DNA from: Hyphomicrobiaceae bacterium
GTDB lineage: Bacteria > Pseudomonadota > Alphaproteobacteria > Rhizobiales > Hyphomicrobiaceae
Direction of reading: 5' to 3'
DNA length: 64,000 bases
NCBI GenBank assembly: GCA_016793635.1
Contig: JAEUMD010000019.1
Span: 1 to 64,000, forward strand
This document shows, in pieces, positions 53,729 through 61,559 of this stretch. Below the pieces are notes generated by a model that was not told the DNA's origin, searched no databases, and saw nothing but the letters and a program-made list of their open reading frames with translations. The translations under genes were made by a program, and so were the position numbers. Positions within the stretch are counted from its first letter, which is position 1; each line of letters starts with the position of its first letter.

Positions 53729-54361
53729 CTATTCCTCCACCGGGTCCAGATCGGCGCCGTCGTGGGCGGCCGAGCCGGGTTTCGCTAGTTTTTTCGCGCG
53801 GCTCAAAGCCTCGCGGATCAATTGGTCCGTCAGAACCAAGCGGGCGTCCGAGATGAGCTCGACCGGGAACCCGACAACCGTCTTACCCACACCTTCGAGG
53901 TCGACGACGATCCGCGCCTCGCCGGCCTCGTAACCTTCGACGATGCCGCGGTAGCGCTTGCGTCCGCTGACCGGCTGGCGCAGCTCGATCTTGGCCTCGT
54001 TACCGGCCCAGGCCTCGAAATCCGATGGCCGCACCAGCGGACGGTCGATGCCGGGCGAGGACACCTCGAGCCGGTAGCTACCAGACACGACGTCGTTGAC
54101 GTCGAGCAGCGCCGAGACTTGGCGCGAGATCGCCTCGCAGTCGTCGATATTGATCGTACCGTCGGGACGCTCGGCCATGATCTGGACGGTCTTGCCGTCG
54201 CGTCCGGAAATCTGAACGCGCACGAGCCGGAATCCGAGATCGATGAGCGCCGGCTCGACGATGCGAGCGACTTCCGCATCCAATCCAGATTCTGTCAAAA
54301 ACCGAGGCTCGTCAGCGCCTTCGCTGCCTGTCTGCATGCGCACATCAGGGGGCTGCAACAT
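53729..54361 (-). CDS. rimP: Ribosome maturation factor RimP
   Basis: 210-residue factor for 30S assembly. The first domain contains [20 protein letters not shown] and [20 protein letters not shown]; the family motif [20 protein letters not shown] follows. The C-terminal SH3-like domain contains [19 protein letters not shown]. Start: ATG at 54361; an ATG eight codons later is possible and neither has a clear ribosome site. The distance to an upstream hairpin is only about 35 bases, which suggests leader regulation. First gene of the rimP-nusA-infB operon. Confidence 0.94.
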
Positions 54362-54384
54362 CGTTTCGTGGGATGCGCCGATTT

Positions 54385-54420
54385 CAAAACAAAAAGAGCG
54401 GATCTTGTGGATCCACTCTC
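54385..54420 (-). terminator. Intrinsic terminator or attenuator between trmB and rimP
   Basis: On the minus strand GAGTGGATC pairs with GATCCGCTC (one G-U pair) around a 5-base loop and is followed at once by TTTTTGTTTTG. It is the best intrinsic terminator of the window. It ends about 24 bases before the rimP start, so it either closes the trmB transcript or acts as an attenuator in the rimP-nusA-infB leader. Confidence 0.85.
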
Positions 54421-54447
54421 AGAGTTGAGATGATCATGAGCAAGTTG

Positions 54448-54476
54448 AAGATACGTTATGACAACGCTCGTTGCAA
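54448..54476 (-). promoter_or_regulatory. Candidate sigma-70-type promoter for rimP-nusA-infB
   Basis: On the minus strand TTGCAA (54476-54471) and TATCTT (54453-54448) are spaced by 17 bases, each matching four of six consensus positions. It lies between the trmB stop at 54499 and the hairpin at 54420. If used, the transcript would start near 54441 and meet the hairpin within about 20 bases. This is prediction only. Confidence 0.35.
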
Positions 54477-54498
54477 GCGAGATCTGTCCATTTTCCGC

Positions 54499-55266
54499 TC
54501 ATTTTGCCCGCGTGAAACGCAGGAAATAGCAGCATCGCCCTTCCCGGATCGCCTTGGCCTCGTATCGGGTGCCTGGCCAGTCACTGGGACGCACACGCCA
54601 ATCCTGCGGGCCCGCGGCCTGCCAGACGAAGTCCGGCGACGATGTGAGGGCGAGCAGCGCGGTGCGGGCATAGTCGCCGATGTCGGTACCGACCCGCAGC
54701 TCGGCGCCCGGTTTCATCACCCGCGCGAGCAACTCGACGAGGGGCGGCTGCACGAGACGGCGCTTGGCGTGGCGCCGCTTCGGCCAGGGGTCGGGAAAGA
54801 GAATGAACACGCGATCGAGGGAGGCCTGCGGCAGCGCGCGCAGCAGCGGCCGGACATCGTCGGCGAGAAGTCGCACGTTGGCGAGCTTGCGATCGCCGGT
54901 CTGGCGATCGGCATCGATCTCGGAGAGCACCTTGACAACGCCGTCCTCGAATGGTTCCGCGCCGATCAGCCCGACATCCGAATTAGCGCGCGCCTGCCAG
55001 ACGAGATGCTCGCCGCCGCCGAAGCCGATTTCGAGCCACGTCTCGCGCACGGGCTCGCCGAACAGCCTGTCGATTGCTCCCTGGGCATCGTTCGAGAACG
55101 TCGGTGCGCCGACCGCTACTTCCGGAAGCAGCGTCTCGAGCAGCATGCGTTGACGCTCGGTCGCCTTGCGGCCGCGACGCCGGCCGAACGAGCGAAGATC
55201 CCCTGCCCCGTCCGCAGCGAGTTCGCGATCGCTCTCGTGATCCGCTGATGTCTTTTCGTCCGCCAT
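54499..55266 (-). CDS. trmB: tRNA (guanine(46)-N7)-methyltransferase
   Basis: 255-residue SAM-dependent enzyme that makes m7G46 in tRNAs. Motif I is visible as WLEIGFGGGEHLVWQARAN and the family signature as RVFILFPDPWPKRRHAKRRL. The C-terminal TRYEAKAIREGRCCYFLRF completes the domain. Start: ATG at 55266 (MADEKTSADHES) with GAGG 8 bases upstream; a longer open frame of 72 codons upstream does not look coding. In related genomes it follows metK directly; here the rtcB-prfH pair lies between, on the other strand. Confidence 0.95.
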   Translation of the reverse strand: MADEKTSADHESDRELAADGAGDLRSFGRRRGRKATERQRMLLETLLPEVAVGAPTFSNDAQGAIDRLFGEPVRETWLEIGFGGGEHLVWQARANSDVGLIGAEPFEDGVVKVLSEIDADRQTGDRKLANVRLLADDVRPLLRALPQASLDRVFILFPDPWPKRRHAKRRLVQPPLVELLARVMKPGAELRVGTDIGDYARTALLALTSSPDFVWQAAGPQDWRVRPSDWPGTRYEAKAIREGRCCYFLRFTRAK

Positions 55267-55508
55267 CCCGTCAACCTCGACACGTCGGGCTCGAGCAGCA
55301 GGGTGCTGCGCCGAGCGCGGGCTCCAAGCGCCACCGACTGATATGCGAGCGCGGAGCGCGTCACGTCTCATCACAAGCGATGACAACCTCGCGCGCTGTG
55401 CTCGGTGAGCCCGCCAAGCGCGGCCCGGTATAGGATCTGGAGCTTTACTCCGCCACAATTTTGAATTAGCCACCCCACCCATTCGAGGACCGGACGAGGA
55501 GACGAGCC

Positions 55509-55631
55509 ATGACAGCCAACGCAGCGACGCTTTGCCAAGCCGTCCGCGGTGGCGTCATCGCGGGCAACACCTGCCTCTCTTCCCTGGGTTCACATGGGCA
55601 ATTCCACCTCGGTGCCGCCAACGGCGCCTGA
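55509..55631 (+). CDS. Possible 40-residue leader peptide overlapping rtcB
   Basis: A small reading frame beginning MTANAATLCQAVRGGVIAGN and ending inside rtcB at 55631. Its ATG has AGGAG 8 bases upstream, far better than the rtcB start at 55594, which lies inside this frame in another register. Translation of the leader could open or block the rtcB start, a common way to couple expression. I recognise no family. It could also be chance, or the rtcB N-terminus could be misread by a frameshift; the frames differ by one base. Confidence 0.4.
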   Translation: MTANAATLCQAVRGGVIAGNTCLSSLGSHGQFHLGAANGA

Positions 55632-56796
55632 TACCACCTCGAGCGATGGCTGCGCATCGCACGCGCCGGCCGTCCAACTCTTCACCTCCGACAAATCCTG
55701 GATCGAGGGTGCTGCCCTGGAGCAGCTCCGCTGCACCGCGCGTCTCGACGGCATGGTGCACGCGGCCGGGTTCCCCGATCTGCATCCCGGCAAGGGGATC
55801 GCGGTCGGCGCCGCATTCGTATCGCGTGGCCGGTTCTATCCGGCGCTCGCCGGCAACGACATCGGCTGCGGCATGAGCTTCTGGGAAACCGATCTCGCGG
55901 CGCGCAAGCTGAAGCTCGACCGCTGGGAAAAGCGCATCTCCGGCCTCGAGCTGCCGTGGGACGGCGACCTCGCACCCTGGCGCGCGCGGTATGATATCCC
56001 TGTATCCGCGTCGGACGCAGGCCTCGGCACGATCGGTGGCGGCAACCACTTCGCCGAGCTGCAAGTGGTCGACGAAGTTCGTGATCCGAAGGCCTTCGCC
56101 GCACTCGGCCTCGATCGCTCGCGCGCCGCACTGCTGATCCACTCTGGCAGCCGCGGCCTCGGACAGGCTGTGTTCAAGGAGCTGATCGACCGCCATGCCG
56201 GCCAGCCGCTCGAAGAGGGCAGCGACGACGCGGCGCACTACCTCGCCCGCCACGATCATGCCATGCGCTTCGCGCGCGCCAACCGCGCCCTGATCGCGTG
56301 GCGGTTCGCGGCGGAGCTCGGCGCCGAGGCGCGACTCGTCTCGGATGTCGGCCACAACATGGTGACGCGCGAGGACTTCGCGGACGCGCCGGCGTGGTTC
56401 CACCGCAAGGGCGCGGCTTCGACGCGCGAAGCGCTCTCGGCCGGCGCCGTCATGATCCCAGGCTCCCGCGGCACGCCGAGTTTCCTGGTCGCCCCGTTGC
56501 CAGGAGACGCGGAGCGTGCCGCGTGGTCACTTGCACACGGTGCCGGGCGCAGGTGGCAACGCGGCTACGCCAAGTCACGCCTCTCAAACAAATACAGCGT
56601 CGGCGATCTGGCTCGCACCGAGCTCGGCGGCCGGGTGATCTGCGAGGATCGCGAGCTGCTCTATGACGAGGCACCGCAGGCCTACAAGGACATCGTGCAA
56701 GTGGTCGCCGACCTCGAACAGGCTGGCCTCGTGAGCACCATCGCCGTCTACCGGCCCGTCCTCACCTATAAGGCACGGAGGCCGAGCGATGACTGA
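55594..56796 (+). CDS. rtcB: RtcB-family RNA ligase (RtcB2 type)
   Basis: 400-residue Mn/GTP-dependent RNA ligase that joins 2',3'-cyclic phosphate or 3'-phosphate ends to 5'-OH ends. Metal and nucleotide residues are visible: GFPDLHPGKGIAVGAAF, LAGNDIGCGMSF with Cys, IGGGNHFAELQ, IHSGSRGLGQ, SDVGHNMVTRE, and the guanylylated His in SLAHGAGRRW. The protein appears complete and active. It overlaps prfH by 8 bases; the RtcB2-PrfH pair repairs and rescues ribosomes with cleaved rRNA in E. coli strains (published work). Start: ATG at 55594 (MGNSTSVPPT), a GTG at 55549 is possible; neither has a good ribosome site, but a leader frame upstream does. Confidence 0.92.
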   Translation: MGNSTSVPPTAPDTTSSDGCASHAPAVQLFTSDKSWIEGAALEQLRCTARLDGMVHAAGFPDLHPGKGIAVGAAFVSRGRFYPALAGNDIGCGMSFWETDLAARKLKLDRWEKRISGLELPWDGDLAPWRARYDIPVSASDAGLGTIGGGNHFAELQVVDEVRDPKAFAALGLDRSRAALLIHSGSRGLGQAVFKELIDRHAGQPLEEGSDDAAHYLARHDHAMRFARANRALIAWRFAAELGAEARLVSDVGHNMVTREDFADAPAWFHRKGAASTREALSAGAVMIPGSRGTPSFLVAPLPGDAERAAWSLAHGAGRRWQRGYAKSRLSNKYSVGDLARTELGGRVICEDRELLYDEAPQAYKDIVQVVADLEQAGLVSTIAVYRPVLTYKARRPSDD

Positions 56797-57469
56797 GCGG
56801 ACCACGGTCCCCAACGCAGCAGCGGACGGCGCGGAACGCATCTGGTTGCAGGTCACATCCGGTCGCGGACCGGCCGAGTGCCAGATCGCCGTGGCGAACC
56901 TGGCGGCAGTTCTGTTGCGCGAGGCGGAAGCAGAAGGTCTCTCGGCCGAGCTGATCGACGCAGTCCACGGCGCAGCGCGTGGCAGCCTGCTCTCCGCGTT
57001 ACTCGCCGTTTCGGGCAAGGATGCCCGCCGCTTCGCCCAGCGCAACGTCGGCAGCGTTCAATGGGTATGCGCCTCCCCCTTGCGCCCTGGACACAAGCGA
57101 AAGAATTGGTTCGTCGCCGTCGATGGCCTCGCACCACCCGCGCGCGAGACGGGAGATGCGATCCGTCTCGCCGACGTCACATTCGAGGCGATGCGCGCAT
57201 CCGGCCCCGGCGGCCAGCACGTCAACAAGACGGAGAGCGCGGTGCGCGCAACGCACAGGCCCTCGGGCCTCGTCGCCACAGCGCGGGAGGAGCGCTCGCA
57301 GGCGATGAACAAGCGCCTGGCGCTTGCACGGCTCGCGGCGATGCTCGCCGCCGGCGTGACCAGCGCGATGGCCGAGGCGGAGCGCGAGCGATGGACGCGC
57401 CACGACCAGCTCGAGCGCGGCAGGCCGGTGCGCGTGTTCAAGGGGGCGGAGTTCAGAGAGTCCACTTGA
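56789..57469 (+). CDS. prfH: Peptide chain release factor H
   Basis: 226-residue release-factor homologue with the GGQ loop RASGPGGQHVNKTESAVRAT that triggers peptidyl-tRNA hydrolysis. The N-terminal part (LQVTSGRGPAECQIAVANLA) differs from RF1/RF2, and the codon-recognition PxT/SPF domain is missing, as in PrfH. PrfH releases peptides from ribosomes with a damaged decoding centre, and its partner RtcB religates the rRNA. The overlap with rtcB (8 bases) supports coupled synthesis. The basic C-terminal tail RGRPVRVFKGAEFREST is normal. Start ATG at 56789. Confidence 0.93.
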   Translation: MTERTTVPNAAADGAERIWLQVTSGRGPAECQIAVANLAAVLLREAEAEGLSAELIDAVHGAARGSLLSALLAVSGKDARRFAQRNVGSVQWVCASPLRPGHKRKNWFVAVDGLAPPARETGDAIRLADVTFEAMRASGPGGQHVNKTESAVRATHRPSGLVATAREERSQAMNKRLALARLAAMLAAGVTSAMAEAERERWTRHDQLERGRPVRVFKGAEFREST

Positions 57470-57547
57470 AGTGCGGGGCGCTACCATCACCAAAGATCGC
57501 ACCGGGGCGTTCGTTGCGGCCCTCGTTCGCGCGAGACACCAATGGAA

Positions 57548-57577
57548 AACGCCCGCGCTCGGAAAAGCGCGGGCGTT
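57548..57577. terminator. Terminator between convergent prfH and metK
   Basis: A perfect 12-bp stem (AACGCCCGCGCT / AGCGCGGGCGTT) with a 6-base loop. The minus-strand exit reads TTTTCCATTG, suited to metK termination; on the plus strand there is no T-run. Confidence 0.8.
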
Positions 57578-57601
57578 CGCATGGCTTCAATTTTCGCGTG
57601 C

Positions 57602-58810
57602 TCAGGCGATCGCCGCCTTGAGCTTGTCCGCAACGTCGGTCTTTTCCCACGAGAAGCCGCCGTCCTTGTCCGGCTCGCGACCGAAGTGGCCGTATGCAGC
57701 AGTGCGCGCGTAGACCGGCTTGTTGAGCTCGAGGTGACTGCGGATGCCGCGCGGCGTCAGGTCCATGACCTTCGGAATAGCGGCCTCGATCGCAGCTTCG
57801 TCGACCTTGCCGGTGCCGTGCGTGTCGACATAGATCGACAGCGGCCGCGCGACACCGATGGCATACGAGAGCTGGATGGTGCAGCGCTCGGCGAGACCCG
57901 CGGCGACGACGTTCTTGGCGAGGTAGCGCGAGGCATAGGCGGCCGAGCGGTCCACCTTCGTCGGGTCTTTGCCGGAGAAGGCGCCGCCGCCATGCGGGGC
58001 CGCTCCACCGTAGGTGTCGACGATGATCTTGCGGCCCGTCAGACCGCAATCGCCGTCCGGTCCGCCGATGTAGAAGGCGCCGGTCGGGTTGATGTGCCAG
58101 ACGGTGTCGTTGGTGATCCAGCCCTCGGGCAGCGCATTGCGCACGAACGGCTCGACGATGTCGCGCACCTGACGCGACGAGAGATCTTTCACGATATGCT
58201 GGTGCGAGACGACGATCGCGGTGACGCCGACCGGCTTGCCGTTCTCGTAGCGCACGGTCACCTGGCTCTTGGAGTCGGGGCCGAGCTTGGCGGCGTCTCC
58301 CTTGCCCGACTTACGCGCGACCGCAAGATCGGCGAGAATGCGATGCGAGTAGTAGATCGGCGCCGGCATCAGAACCGGTGTCTCGGTGCAGGCGTAACCG
58401 AACATGATGCCCTGGTCGCCCGCGCCTTCCTCCTTGTTGGTCGGCTGCTTGGCATCGACGCCCGCGGCGATGTCGGCCGACTGGCCGTGCAGAAGCACCT
58501 CGATGTTGGCGTTGGCCCAGTGGAAGCCTTCCTGCTCGTAGCCGATGTCGCGGATCGCCTTGCGCGCGATCTCCTGGATCATCTGCACCGTGATGCTCGG
58601 CGCGGTGTTCGAGTATTCGCCGGCGATGATAACGCGTTGCGTCGTCGCCATCGTCTCGCAGGCCGCGCGGATGGCCCACGGATCGAGATTGGCGGCAAGG
58701 CTCTCGCGATAGAACAGGTCCACCACCTCGTCCGAGATGCGGTCGCAAACCTTGTCGGGATGCCCTTCGGACACGGACTCACTGGTGAAGAGATAGGACT
58801 TGCGTGCCAC
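57602..58810 (-). CDS. metK: S-adenosylmethionine synthase
   Basis: 402-residue enzyme that makes SAM from methionine and ATP. The N-terminus [20 protein letters not shown] holds the ATP-binding His. The signatures [16 protein letters not shown] and [19 protein letters not shown] are intact. Length is usual for alphaproteobacteria. Start: GTG at 58810 ([11 protein letters not shown]) with GAGGGGG upstream; a longer frame to 58864 is rejected because conservation begins at ARKSYLF. Upstream is the XRE regulator, the conserved order. I did not find a convincing SAM riboswitch in the 165 bases before it. Confidence 0.97.
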
Positions 58811-58975
58811 GACGGGCCCCCTCGGGTCAGATCTGAACTGCTGATTTCGGCAGCCTTGTTGCAAGCTTTCGTGGAGGGGTCAAGCCGCGCGCGCGCCTCA
58901 TCCCGGAGCCGCGCGCGCCATGTACGCCATGTCGCAGGCACCCCGCCCGGCACGAGCCTCTCGGCGGGTCGCGCC

Positions 58976-59446
58976 TCAGTTCCCTTCGGCCTCGCCGGCG
59001 AGCGACCTGACCAGCTCGACGATGGCTCGGCGGACGCGCGGGTCCGTGATGCGGGAAAACGCCTTGTTGAGTTCGACGCCATCGCGCGATGACATCACCT
59101 CGGCGACGTAGGGCTCAGCGCCGCGCTCGGCGAAACCGCCTGCCGCCGCCATCTGCTCGGTCATGGCCGCGGGGACTTCGTCGTAGAAGTATTGGATCGG
59201 AACCCCGAGGACGTGTGAGAGATCGAATAGTCGGCTCGCGCCGATGCGGTTGACGCCCTTCTCGTACTTCTGGACCTGCTGGAACGTGAGGCCCAGCATC
59301 TCGCCGAGCTTTTCCTGGCTGAGGCCGAGCAGCATACGCCGCATCCTGACACGCGTACCGACATGCGCATCCATCGGATTGGGACGGCGCGCGTTTCTTT
59401 CCTCGGCATACGAGCCGGACTGAGCTTCTTCTTCTTCTTTTGCCAT
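58976..59446 (-). CDS. XRE-family regulator (PraR/PhrR-like)
   Basis: 156-residue transcriptional regulator. The helix-turn-helix covers about residues 27-85: HVGTRVRMRRMLLGLSQEKL, GEMLGLTFQQVQKYEKGVNR and IGASRLFDLSHVLGVPIQYF. This closely matches a group conserved in Hyphomicrobiales that includes PhrR and PraR, involved in stress response and biofilm or symbiosis control. An acidic N-terminal leader and a helical C-terminal domain complete it. The neighbours lnt and metK are the usual ones. Two direct repeats upstream may be its operator. ATG at 59446. Confidence 0.88.
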   Translation of the reverse strand: MAKEEEEAQSGSYAEERNARRPNPMDAHVGTRVRMRRMLLGLSQEKLGEMLGLTFQQVQKYEKGVNRIGASRLFDLSHVLGVPIQYFYDEVPAAMTEQMAAAGGFAERGAEPYVAEVMSSRDGVELNKAFSRITDPRVRRAIVELVRSLAGEAEGN

Positions 59447-59780
59447 GATCGTAACCGAGTGCCGACTCTCTAATGTCAGGGGGCCGATGTCAGGGGGAAT
59501 GAGATTTGGTCATGTCTAGAAGTCGGATAATCGCGCGTCAACATCACCACATGCCGCAAGATTGCGAAAACACTCGTCGATCCGCGCCTCCCGGAGTACC
59601 GCAACCGGGTTCACTGTAGCGGATTGCGCATGCTTTCTGAACGACGCTTTTGAAACGCGATTTCGCACTTGCCGTTTTCGATAGATGTACCAGCGATGCG
59701 ATTGCAGAAAAACAAGTAGAAAAAACGTATACCCTTTGCCGATCATCCGTGGGGAGCCGCAACGCGGATTTGAACCTTCG
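59447..59780. other. Gap between lnt and the XRE regulator
   Basis: 334 bases, clearly less GC-rich than the rest. It holds the direct repeats at 59473-59497 and two T-runs on the minus strand about 65-80 bases past the lnt stop that may mark factor-independent or Rho-type termination. No protein gene is credible here. Confidence 0.5.
59473..59497. promoter_or_regulatory. Direct repeat upstream of the XRE gene (candidate operator)
   Basis: ATGTCAGGGGG occurs twice, at 59473-59483 and 59487-59497, start to start 14 bases apart, 27-51 bases before the regulator's ATG at 59446. XRE regulators often autoregulate at such sites; the link is inferred. Confidence 0.45.
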
Positions 59781-61559
59781 TCAGGCGTCGCTCTGTCGTG
59801 ACACCGCGAGTCCGGCGGCGAGGATCGTGAGCAGCGCGAGGAAGACGAAGTCACCCGCTATCGCATAGAGAGGGGGCTCGATGTGGCGCGGCAGCTCCGT
59901 GTCGATGACGCCCCGCACGTCGAGATCGAGCGTCGGGCCTACTCGTCCAAAGGCATCGATGACCGCCGAGACACCGTTATTGGCGGCGCGGATGATCGGG
60001 ACGCCCTCCTCCACCGCGCGTACACGCGACATGTGGAAGTGCTGATACGGGCCGGTCGTCTGGCCGAACCAGCCGTCGTTGGTGACGTTCACGATGACCG
60101 CTGGGCGATCCTCCGTTTGCACCACCTCGGCCGGGAAGATCGCCTCGTAGCAGACGAGGGCGAGGAGGGGCGGCGCTCCCGGCACGTCGATGATCGGCCG
60201 AGGCGAGCGCCCGACTTCAAAACCACCCCTCACCCGCGTCAGCTGCTCGAGACCGATGCTCTCCAGCAGCGCTTGCATCGGCAGGTACTCGCCGAACGGT
60301 ACGAGATGGATCTTGTCGTAGACGGCGGCGAGGCCACCCTCGGCATTGAAAACCATCAGCGAGTTGAAGACGCGGGTGCGCGGCGGCGGTACGGCCTCGG
60401 CTTGATCGACCGCCTGCTCGGGCCTTTCGGCGCGCAGCGCACCCGTCAGAAGGTGCGTACCGTCCGGCAATAGTTCGGCGATCTCGGAGAGTGCCTGCGG
60501 GCTCTCGAGCGGCAAGAACGGCATCGCCGCCTCGGGCCAGACGAGATGCGTGACCCCGGCCATGTCGTCGACGAGGCCCTCGGCGTTGCGACGCGACAGA
60601 TCGAGATGGAGATCGAAGATCTCGCGCTGCTTTTCCCGCTGCCATTTCTCGCGTTGCGGCACGCTCGGCTGCACGATGCGCAGCTTGACGCCGTCGACGG
60701 TTTCGTCGCTCGCTTCGCCGAGTCGCCACGCGCCGTATCCGAACAGGGGCGCGAACAACGCCACTGCGACGAGAGCCCCCGCACCTGCGCGCACCACGAG
60801 CTTATCGCTCGGCGCCTCCGCCGCGTCCGAAAGCGACACGAGCGGCGCGGCAAGCGCAATTACGGCGACGAGGGTGAGACCGTAGACACCGAGAACGGCC
60901 GCGCCCTGAATAGCCGCGCCCGGTGCGGTCAGCGCATAGCCGAGGACGTTCCACGGCAGGCCCGTGAGGATGTGCCCGCGAAGCCATTCGACGATGGCGA
61001 GCGCCAGGGCCAGGACCACGACGCGACCCAGCCCGGGACGCCATACTGCGCGCGCACCGGCCGCGGCGGCGGCGAAGAACATCGCCAGAAAGGCAGGCAG
61101 CAACGTCACCGCGGCTGGCAGCAGCCAAGCGAACTTCTCGGCCTCGACGAGGAATGCTTCGCCGATCCAGAACAGGCCGCTGACGAAATAGCCAAAGCCG
61201 AAGAACCACCCTGCGAAAGCCGCGCGCCGCAGCACATCTCGCCGCGAAGGAACGCTGGCCTGCAATTCTCCCGGCGGTATGCGGGGCGCATCGGCGGTGT
61301 CGATCAGCCAAACGAGCAGCGGCAGCGTCAATGCCATGACCGGCGCGAGGAAGAACGGCGCCATGGCGAGCACCGACAGCGCACCAGCGACGAACGCGAT
61401 GGAACCGCGAACCCAGAAGGAGGCCGATCCCAGCCGGTCGGCAATGCCGCGCGTGCCGGCCGCAAGGCCACGCACGATGCCTTCGATCGGTCCGTCGCTG
61501 CCCGTCCTGGGCTGCCGAACCGCCTCAGAGCCGCCTGCCTCGTTGTCCCCCGATTGCAA
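59781..61559 (-). CDS. lnt: Apolipoprotein N-acyltransferase
   Basis: 592-residue inner-membrane enzyme that adds the third acyl chain to lipoproteins. Six to eight membrane helices fill the N-terminal 260 residues. The periplasmic nitrilase domain has the triad: Glu in HLVWPEAAMPFLP, Lys in YDKIHLVPFGEYLP and Cys in LALVCYEAIFP; VIVNVTNDGWFGQTTGPYQH is also typical. Slightly longer than the usual 510-540 residues, with an acidic N-terminal leader. The only start is TTG at 61559, two bases past the corC stop, so coupling is likely. Confidence 0.95.
   Translation of the reverse strand: MQSGDNEAGGSEAVRQPRTGSDGPIEGIVRGLAAGTRGIADRLGSASFWVRGSIAFVAGALSVLAMAPFFLAPVMALTLPLLVWLIDTADAPRIPPGELQASVPSRRDVLRRAAFAGWFFGFGYFVSGLFWIGEAFLVEAEKFAWLLPAAVTLLPAFLAMFFAAAAAGARAVWRPGLGRVVVLALALAIVEWLRGHILTGLPWNVLGYALTAPGAAIQGAAVLGVYGLTLVAVIALAAPLVSLSDAAEAPSDKLVVRAGAGALVAVALFAPLFGYGAWRLGEASDETVDGVKLRIVQPSVPQREKWQREKQREIFDLHLDLSRRNAEGLVDDMAGVTHLVWPEAAMPFLPLESPQALSEIAELLPDGTHLLTGALRAERPEQAVDQAEAVPPPRTRVFNSLMVFNAEGGLAAVYDKIHLVPFGEYLPMQALLESIGLEQLTRVRGGFEVGRSPRPIIDVPGAPPLLALVCYEAIFPAEVVQTEDRPAVIVNVTNDGWFGQTTGPYQHFHMSRVRAVEEGVPIIRAANNGVSAVIDAFGRVGPTLDLDVRGVIDTELPRHIEPPLYAIAGDFVFLALLTILAAGLAVSRQSDA

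Follow-up and report, generated by a model that had tools for sequence, protein, structure and literature searches.

The RFH operon of Baranov et al. 2006 (PMC1586002) combines an upstream rtcB-like gene, close coupling of its two genes and a patchy distribution, as set out in the abstract and the available part of the text, and the accessible portion of a second paper gives its distribution as sporadic and horizontally spread (PMC6514570). In P. aeruginosa, PA5471 (ArmZ) belongs to family PRK09588 and is followed by a release factor gene (PA5470), according to the available text of PMC3516279. The same partial sources describe the PA5471.1 leader of this operon as 13 residues long and as monitoring translation, or sensing ribosome impairment (PMC3516279, PMC12057347), with 13 codons, CUUUGCAG and transcription attenuation (PMC3516279, PMC12057347, PMC13041342). 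The locus compared with these systems here lies in the window, a stretch of 64,000 nt (positions 1 to 64,000 of contig JAEUMD010000019.1, assembly GCA_016793635.1) from a Hyphomicrobiaceae bacterium. It shares with the RFH operon the gene content, coupling and distribution listed above; with the RtcB2-PrfH operon of E. coli ATCC25922 (PMC9223846, available part) both genes, their order, a tight overlap and passage of the family cut-offs; and with PA5471-PA5470 orthologous genes and a short leader ORF before rtcB2. It differs from the E. coli operon in its chromosomal metK-trmB site and in its leader, its RtcB2 standing at 40-58% versus gamma/beta versions; for the RFH operon, no leader is mentioned in the abstract or available part of PMC1586002. 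Unlike PA5471.1, the window leader has 40 codons, overlaps rtcB2 and has another hairpin, which no T run follows. Both the operon and the fact that it spreads horizontally were already known; the window leader is new as far as our literature search shows, which returned no leader reported for rtcB2-prfH outside P. aeruginosa, a mention in Morita 2006, Morita 2009 or Tian et al. being possible.

The pair occupies 55594-57469 on the plus strand. Its first gene, rtcB2 (55594-56796), was identified from its open frame, profile matches and alignments as encoding a 400-aa RNA ligase of the RtcB2/ArmZ type, with a conserved ATG start at 55594 (ATGGGCAAT). The second, prfH (56789-57469), encodes the 226-aa peptide chain release factor H and starts at an ATG within the end of rtcB2 (ATGACTGA), giving an 8-nt overlap of the two open frames. 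RtcB2 scored 438 bits against TIGR03073 (cut-off 271.8) and 480.7 bits against NF007153/PRK09588 (cut-off 407), and PrfH scored 237.3 bits against TIGR03072 (cut-off 166.65; E 1e-70). Since PA5471 belongs to PRK09588, an operon of the window's kind already has a published leader that monitors translation. Residues D89, C92, N151, H152, H183, H254 and H315 were invariant in 13 of 13 aligned RtcB2s, and we take them to be the metal and guanylylation positions, an assignment that alignment to solved RtcBs helps. The GGQ of PrfH (G141, G142, Q143) was invariant across 13 PrfHs, and the protein is without the N-terminal domain 1 of RF1/RF2, its RF2 match beginning at RF2 residue 128. PrfH-specific features given in the available part of Baranov et al. 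2006 (PMC1586002) are GP instead of GG and an Arg after the anticodon-like tripeptide; both are present in the window PrfH (G27-P28 and S96-P-L-R99) and invariant in 13 rows except at P97/L98. By both family cut-offs, active-site residues, GGQ and these PrfH-specific features the window pair is an RtcB2-PrfH operon, and the initial annotation, which had called a complete pair with its ligase His, GGQ and 8-nt overlap, was borne out by frames, cut-offs and alignments. As judged from sequence, RtcB2 and PrfH appear to keep the positions expected of working enzymes. Elsewhere in this genome, at C5:197252-198376, lies another RtcB, of the ordinary type.

To the left of the pair is trmB (minus strand, 54499 to about 55266), and to its right is metK (minus strand, ORF 57602-58864, its GTG start probably near 58810). 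Where prfH and metK converge lies an inverted repeat, AACGCCCGCGC and GCGCGGGCGTT separated by 8 nt (57548-57577, assigned to neither strand), which is also present in G001, a sister species, and is a candidate two-way terminator; it was not listed by the terminator scan, since it is without a T run. The scan of the window for promoters and terminators found nothing, terminators being below shuffle level. The surroundings of metK were compared in 40 relatives besides G001, drawn from the 97 of 100 searched genomes with a metK match. In 34 of the 40, trmB follows metK on the same strand; two of the six exceptions (G011, G017) are cut by a contig end, and the other four (G016, G023, G050, G093) either are arranged differently or have a trmB beyond the reach of the search. 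None of the 40 carries the pair in the metK-trmB interval. Among three congeners only G001 has it at this site; G002 has a distant version at another site, and no pair over cut-off was found in G003. PrfH exceeded its cut-off in 13 of 100 relatives, the present genome included, and in 14 of 103 family genomes, and the distribution of the pair in the family is patchy. The fetched surroundings of the pair in other carriers held no metK or trmB. Insertion between normally adjacent genes, as had been proposed, agrees with these comparisons, and acquisition of the pair is supported by its patchy distribution, its presence here in G001 only among the congeners and the distant, differently placed version in G002. 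The opposite outcome, with the pair at this place in all close relatives and trees matching the species tree, was not obtained.

Several observations accompany this distribution. The prfH gene is split over two frames in G066 (L047:7543-8159), and G034 has a short prfH with no rtcB2 nearby (L048:7700-8248). A defence island around the pair was considered and rejected, the neighbours in 14 other loci being mostly unrelated ordinary genes. With regard to the initial suggestion that the host may meet rRNA-cutting toxins, a search with PF09000, the colicin-E3-type nuclease domain, gave no match in 103 family genomes, nor in any of 14 control genomes, and so is not informative. Base composition as a sign of foreign origin (GC 0.686/0.696 vs 0.661 for the window) was not informative.

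An RtcB2 tree with 88 rows placed the window and G001 inside a Hyphomicrobiales clade with G016, the genus of G040 (Hyphomicrobium, from the matching contig of L120) and others; it placed congener G002 in a distant clade with G014 and G059, with starred support. RtcB2 identities to the window were 92% for G001, 82% for G016, 77% for G040, 69% for G028 and 46% for G002. The MetK tree placed the window and G001 with G020, G016 and others, apart from their congeners, and forcing the four MetKs together cost 133.66 log units (AU p 1e-52, for a group picked after identities had been seen). Quick trees of TrmB and Lnt grouped with congeners (SH-aLRT 98 and 99, respectively), as did a NusA+RimP+TrmB tree (bootstrap 100), and a quick tree of the small HTH protein encoded between metK and lnt does not resolve its position. 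Because MetK stands apart from the congeners and TrmB and Lnt stand with them, the pair and metK may have moved together. In itself this reads as commonplace horizontal transfer of an operon already known. At least metK, probably together with the pair, forms a block whose history differs from that of its surroundings.

We regard another history as entirely conceivable, in which the pair and metK moved in two unrelated events, or in which the pair is old in the family, has been repeatedly lost and moves within genomes. The MetK tree conflicts with the species in several other genera, and metK is often replaced in the family, so the metK swap may be a separate event; the swapped metK could also be on the congeners' side. 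In keeping with movement within genomes, clade A pairs occupy the AhpC-HAD interval in five genomes of the Hyphomicrobium genus, and in G016 and G012 they lie close to that HAD gene. Weighing against both versions, metK adjoins the pair, and the same two genomes show the change in each. The genome's own AhpC-HAD interval was examined for a remnant of the pair and none was seen; an ORF resembling a formate/nitrite transporter, named by eye, is there instead (L296:8220-9122). The HAD-phosphatase was also considered as a functional partner from its position near the pair in these seven genomes, a reading rejected because the HAD gene occurs in 36 of 60 relatives with or without the pair. Separately, G008, G012, G015, G059, G006, G014 and G017 have a MetK of a type very unlike that of other relatives.

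The initial annotation made no mention of a leader 5' of rtcB2. On the plus strand, a Shine-Dalgarno sequence, GAGGAGA (55496-55502), precedes a leader ORF of 40 codons (55509-55631) that overlaps the start of rtcB2 by 38 nt in the +1 frame. Within the ORF is a potential 10-bp hairpin, GUCCGCGGUG / CAUCGCGGGC, with a 4-nt loop (55542-55565), and between it and rtcB2 is UCUCUUC (55576-55582), complementary to the leader Shine-Dalgarno; sequence and a duplex test make these two short stretches the proposed 5' and 3' arms of an outer stem. Positions 55504-55601 are identical to G001 over 98 nt, the longest identical run in a compared region that is about 89% identical overall. The hairpin pattern GCCGTCCGCGGTGGNNNCATCGCGGGC (55539-55565) occurred with 0 mismatches in 8 of 103 family genomes (G000, G001, G016, G040 and G134-G137), once per genome and always 28-31 nt 5' of the rtcB2 start; no matches had 1 or 2 mismatches, and 3 mismatches gave 8 matches vs 4 for a reversed control pattern. 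These eight operons lie in the metK-trmB interval (two), in the AhpC-HAD interval (five, of the Hyphomicrobium genus) and on the far side of the HAD gene (G016), and the presence of one leader at three kinds of site indicates that it moves with the operon. Hyphomicrobium LHD-15, a laboratory strain, has this leader as well. A diverged form is found in G012, and in G028 and the Afifella locus L125, of the same RtcB2 clade, the hairpin pattern was not seen by eye.

The leader ORF was present in 9 of 9 aligned relatives, with 39-44 codons and the +1 frame offset in every case. Across the nine sequences the leader ATG and the hairpin are 34 or 37 nt apart, the rtcB2 start lies 28 or 31 nt past the hairpin and the leader stop 32-44 nt inside rtcB2, the leader spacing varying only by 3 nt. 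Over seven non-duplicate sequences, identity is 100% in the stem arms, compared with 58% in the loop and 56-64% in flanking DNA. The invariant stem covers synonymous codon positions and so points to RNA, and the constant frame with its 3-nt spacing changes points to translation.

The isolated 37-nt hairpin folded with z -2.70; the window's 146-nt leader context gave z -0.69, no better than shuffles, and a lowest-energy structure without the hairpin. RNAalifold predicts the 10-bp hairpin, which is without two-sided changes; only G012 varies, keeping two pairs by one-sided changes and losing one. For pairing of the leader Shine-Dalgarno with the stretch before rtcB2, 1 of 5000 shuffles was as good (4 of 5000 when G012 was left out), in a test of eight sequences of which five are from one genus. 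RNAalifold omits this proposed outer stem and instead pairs the leader start (CCAUG) with the rtcB2 start region. Leader model R1 matched in only 2 of 297 order genomes, both matches being rtcB2 leaders and both training rows. Rfam at its gathering score gave no match in window positions 54000-60000, and on 16 other loci gave tRNA and RtT only, none over a leader.

The explanation that best fits the whole, and that we hold with moderate confidence from these sequence comparisons, is a transferred repair operon whose expression may be controlled by a travelling leader switched on by failing ribosomes. Transfer, with a probable source within Hyphomicrobiaceae, would have brought the pair into the ancestor shared by this species and G001, where it would have inserted between metK and trmB; metK may have been swapped in the same exchange. 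By family membership, and as is in print for E. coli, when a ribosome has been cut in its decoding center PrfH would hydrolyze the peptidyl-tRNA and RtcB2 would re-seal the 16S rRNA. The putative control element would comprise the 40-codon ORF with its good Shine-Dalgarno, the internal hairpin and the stretch before rtcB2 able to pair with that Shine-Dalgarno. Healthy ribosomes would translate the leader and pass over the rtcB2 start, which would then see little use; a ribosome that had stalled at the leader start or close to it would cover the Shine-Dalgarno, block the outer stem and keep the rtcB2 start accessible to other ribosomes. Failing ribosomes would thereby induce the operon, as they do for the P. 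aeruginosa orthologue through the published PA5471.1 leader.

Another possibility, to our minds unlikely, is translational coupling with no sensing, in which ribosomes reach the leader stop, 38 nt into rtcB2, and then initiate again at the rtcB2 ATG, so that the leader simply drives RtcB2 synthesis. The leader has a Shine-Dalgarno and rtcB2 no clear one of its own, the overlap and frame are fixed in 9 of 9 sequences and rtcB2 and prfH overlap in like manner, all as coupling would predict; a stop 32-44 nt past the rtcB2 start is nevertheless a long way back, and coupling would work without an invariant hairpin and without any pairing between the Shine-Dalgarno and the rtcB2 start region. Less probable still, the hairpin could serve in the mRNA for protein binding or RNase processing, for example in RtcB2 autoregulation, with the leader ORF as a side effect. 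The RtcB2 family binds RNA, and stem arms that are invariant around a free loop suit such a site; the kept ORF, Shine-Dalgarno and frame would be left unexplained. We consider it very improbable that the leader is an alternative N-terminus reached by a +1 shift into rtcB2, an idea raised by the offset constant in 9 of 9 sequences and by an rtcB2 frame open upstream as far as a GTG at 55549, because the ATGGGCAAT start is kept also in distant clade B, without this leader, and no recognized slippery site was noticed.

The proposed ribosome-responsive leader was set beside those of other rtcB2-prfH operons in a survey of 85 loci (L120-L205) with an RtcB2 match and two plasmid loci, using a search that required the CUUUGCAG motif. 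A short ORF with CUUUGCAG or a near form at +19, +21 or +25 was present in 27 surveyed loci, with 13 codons in 24 of the 27; the 27 comprise 24 of the 26 gamma/beta RtcB2-clade rows, one viral contig, an E. coli plasmid and a Klebsiella plasmid. E. coli plasmid pCP127 carries the CUUUGCAG leader. The motif is read in different frames among loci and pairs with GGCCUGC before rtcB2 (stem 1), a stem that RNAalifold recovered from 22 sequences, with two-sided changes at two pairs; CCAAUCC after CUUUGCAG can pair with GGAUUGG beside the rtcB2 start (stem 2). Shuffles of 15 sequences were as good in 13 of 2000 cases for stem 1 and 0 of 2000 for stem 2. A model, R2, built from 22 gamma/beta leaders matched in 6 of 398 phylum genomes, each time directly 5' of rtcB2-prfH, two of the six (G436 and G514) being close to training rows. 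Of these 398 genomes, 14 had prfH over cut-off, and the R2 matches fell in 6 of the 14 carriers vs 0 of the 384 others. The P. aeruginosa PA7 leader (L188, MIQFSTLCRLRLA) fits PA5471.1 as printed in the available parts of PMC3516279 and PMC13041342 (13 residues, Q3, F4), so the surveyed leader is an element known in one species, found here in a wider range of operons.

The window leader is not homologous to PA5471.1 in sequence or structure. Homology had been considered and was ruled out by R2, which gave no match up to E 1 in the window and none in the organism's own genome; CUUUGCAG is absent at +19 to +25 in the window, where the leader has 40 codons and not about 13. By analogy, the window leader may do a job similar to that of PA5471.1 with another structure.

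Other leaders and contexts were seen in passing. Clade B operons (G002, G014, G059) have an apparent third leader, recognized by eye, in the form of a short ORF, conserved ahead of rtcB2, that contains GTCTCGCCGCCC in differing reading frames (L042:6400-6694, L043, L044), and a Methylosinus plasmid has a short ORF with a hairpin GCTCC-CTAA-GGAGC 5' of rtcB2 (L321, before 1495). An rtcB2-prfH pair adjoins sul1 on a conjugative IncC Klebsiella plasmid (L320). Among IMG/VR putative viral contigs, L201 and L203 carry rtcB2, prfH and a gamma-type leader; L202, L206 and L207 (217, 376 and 200 kb) carry PrfH with no RtcB2 in the examined stretch, the PrfHs of L202 and L206 being over cut-off. A Verrucomicrobiota-type RtcB2 clade (L138, L139, L146, L160, L167, L170, L174, L193) has no prfH in the examined DNA, in contrast to the statement that the two genes always occur together; the two members tested, L160 and L167, were well over the TIGR03073 cut-off.

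Taken more broadly, and only tentatively, leaders that read ribosome function may be a general and repeatedly reinvented part of rtcB2-prfH operons. PA5471.1 would then be a sensor primarily for ribosome repair that became known through an efflux-pump side effect, and Hyphomicrobiaceae would have evolved a sensor of their own, unrelated in structure, which exposes rtcB2 when a ribosome is held at the start of the leader. The window sequence offers clear, testable pairings. If the leader does act in the proposed way, the ribosome itself would be the cell's detector of ribosome damage, and the repair kit would bring its own switch along when it moves between hosts and loci. This would further account for the response of a P. 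aeruginosa RtcB-type ligase gene to ribosome-targeting drugs; such control would be ancestral to ribosome repair and no peculiarity of the efflux pump.
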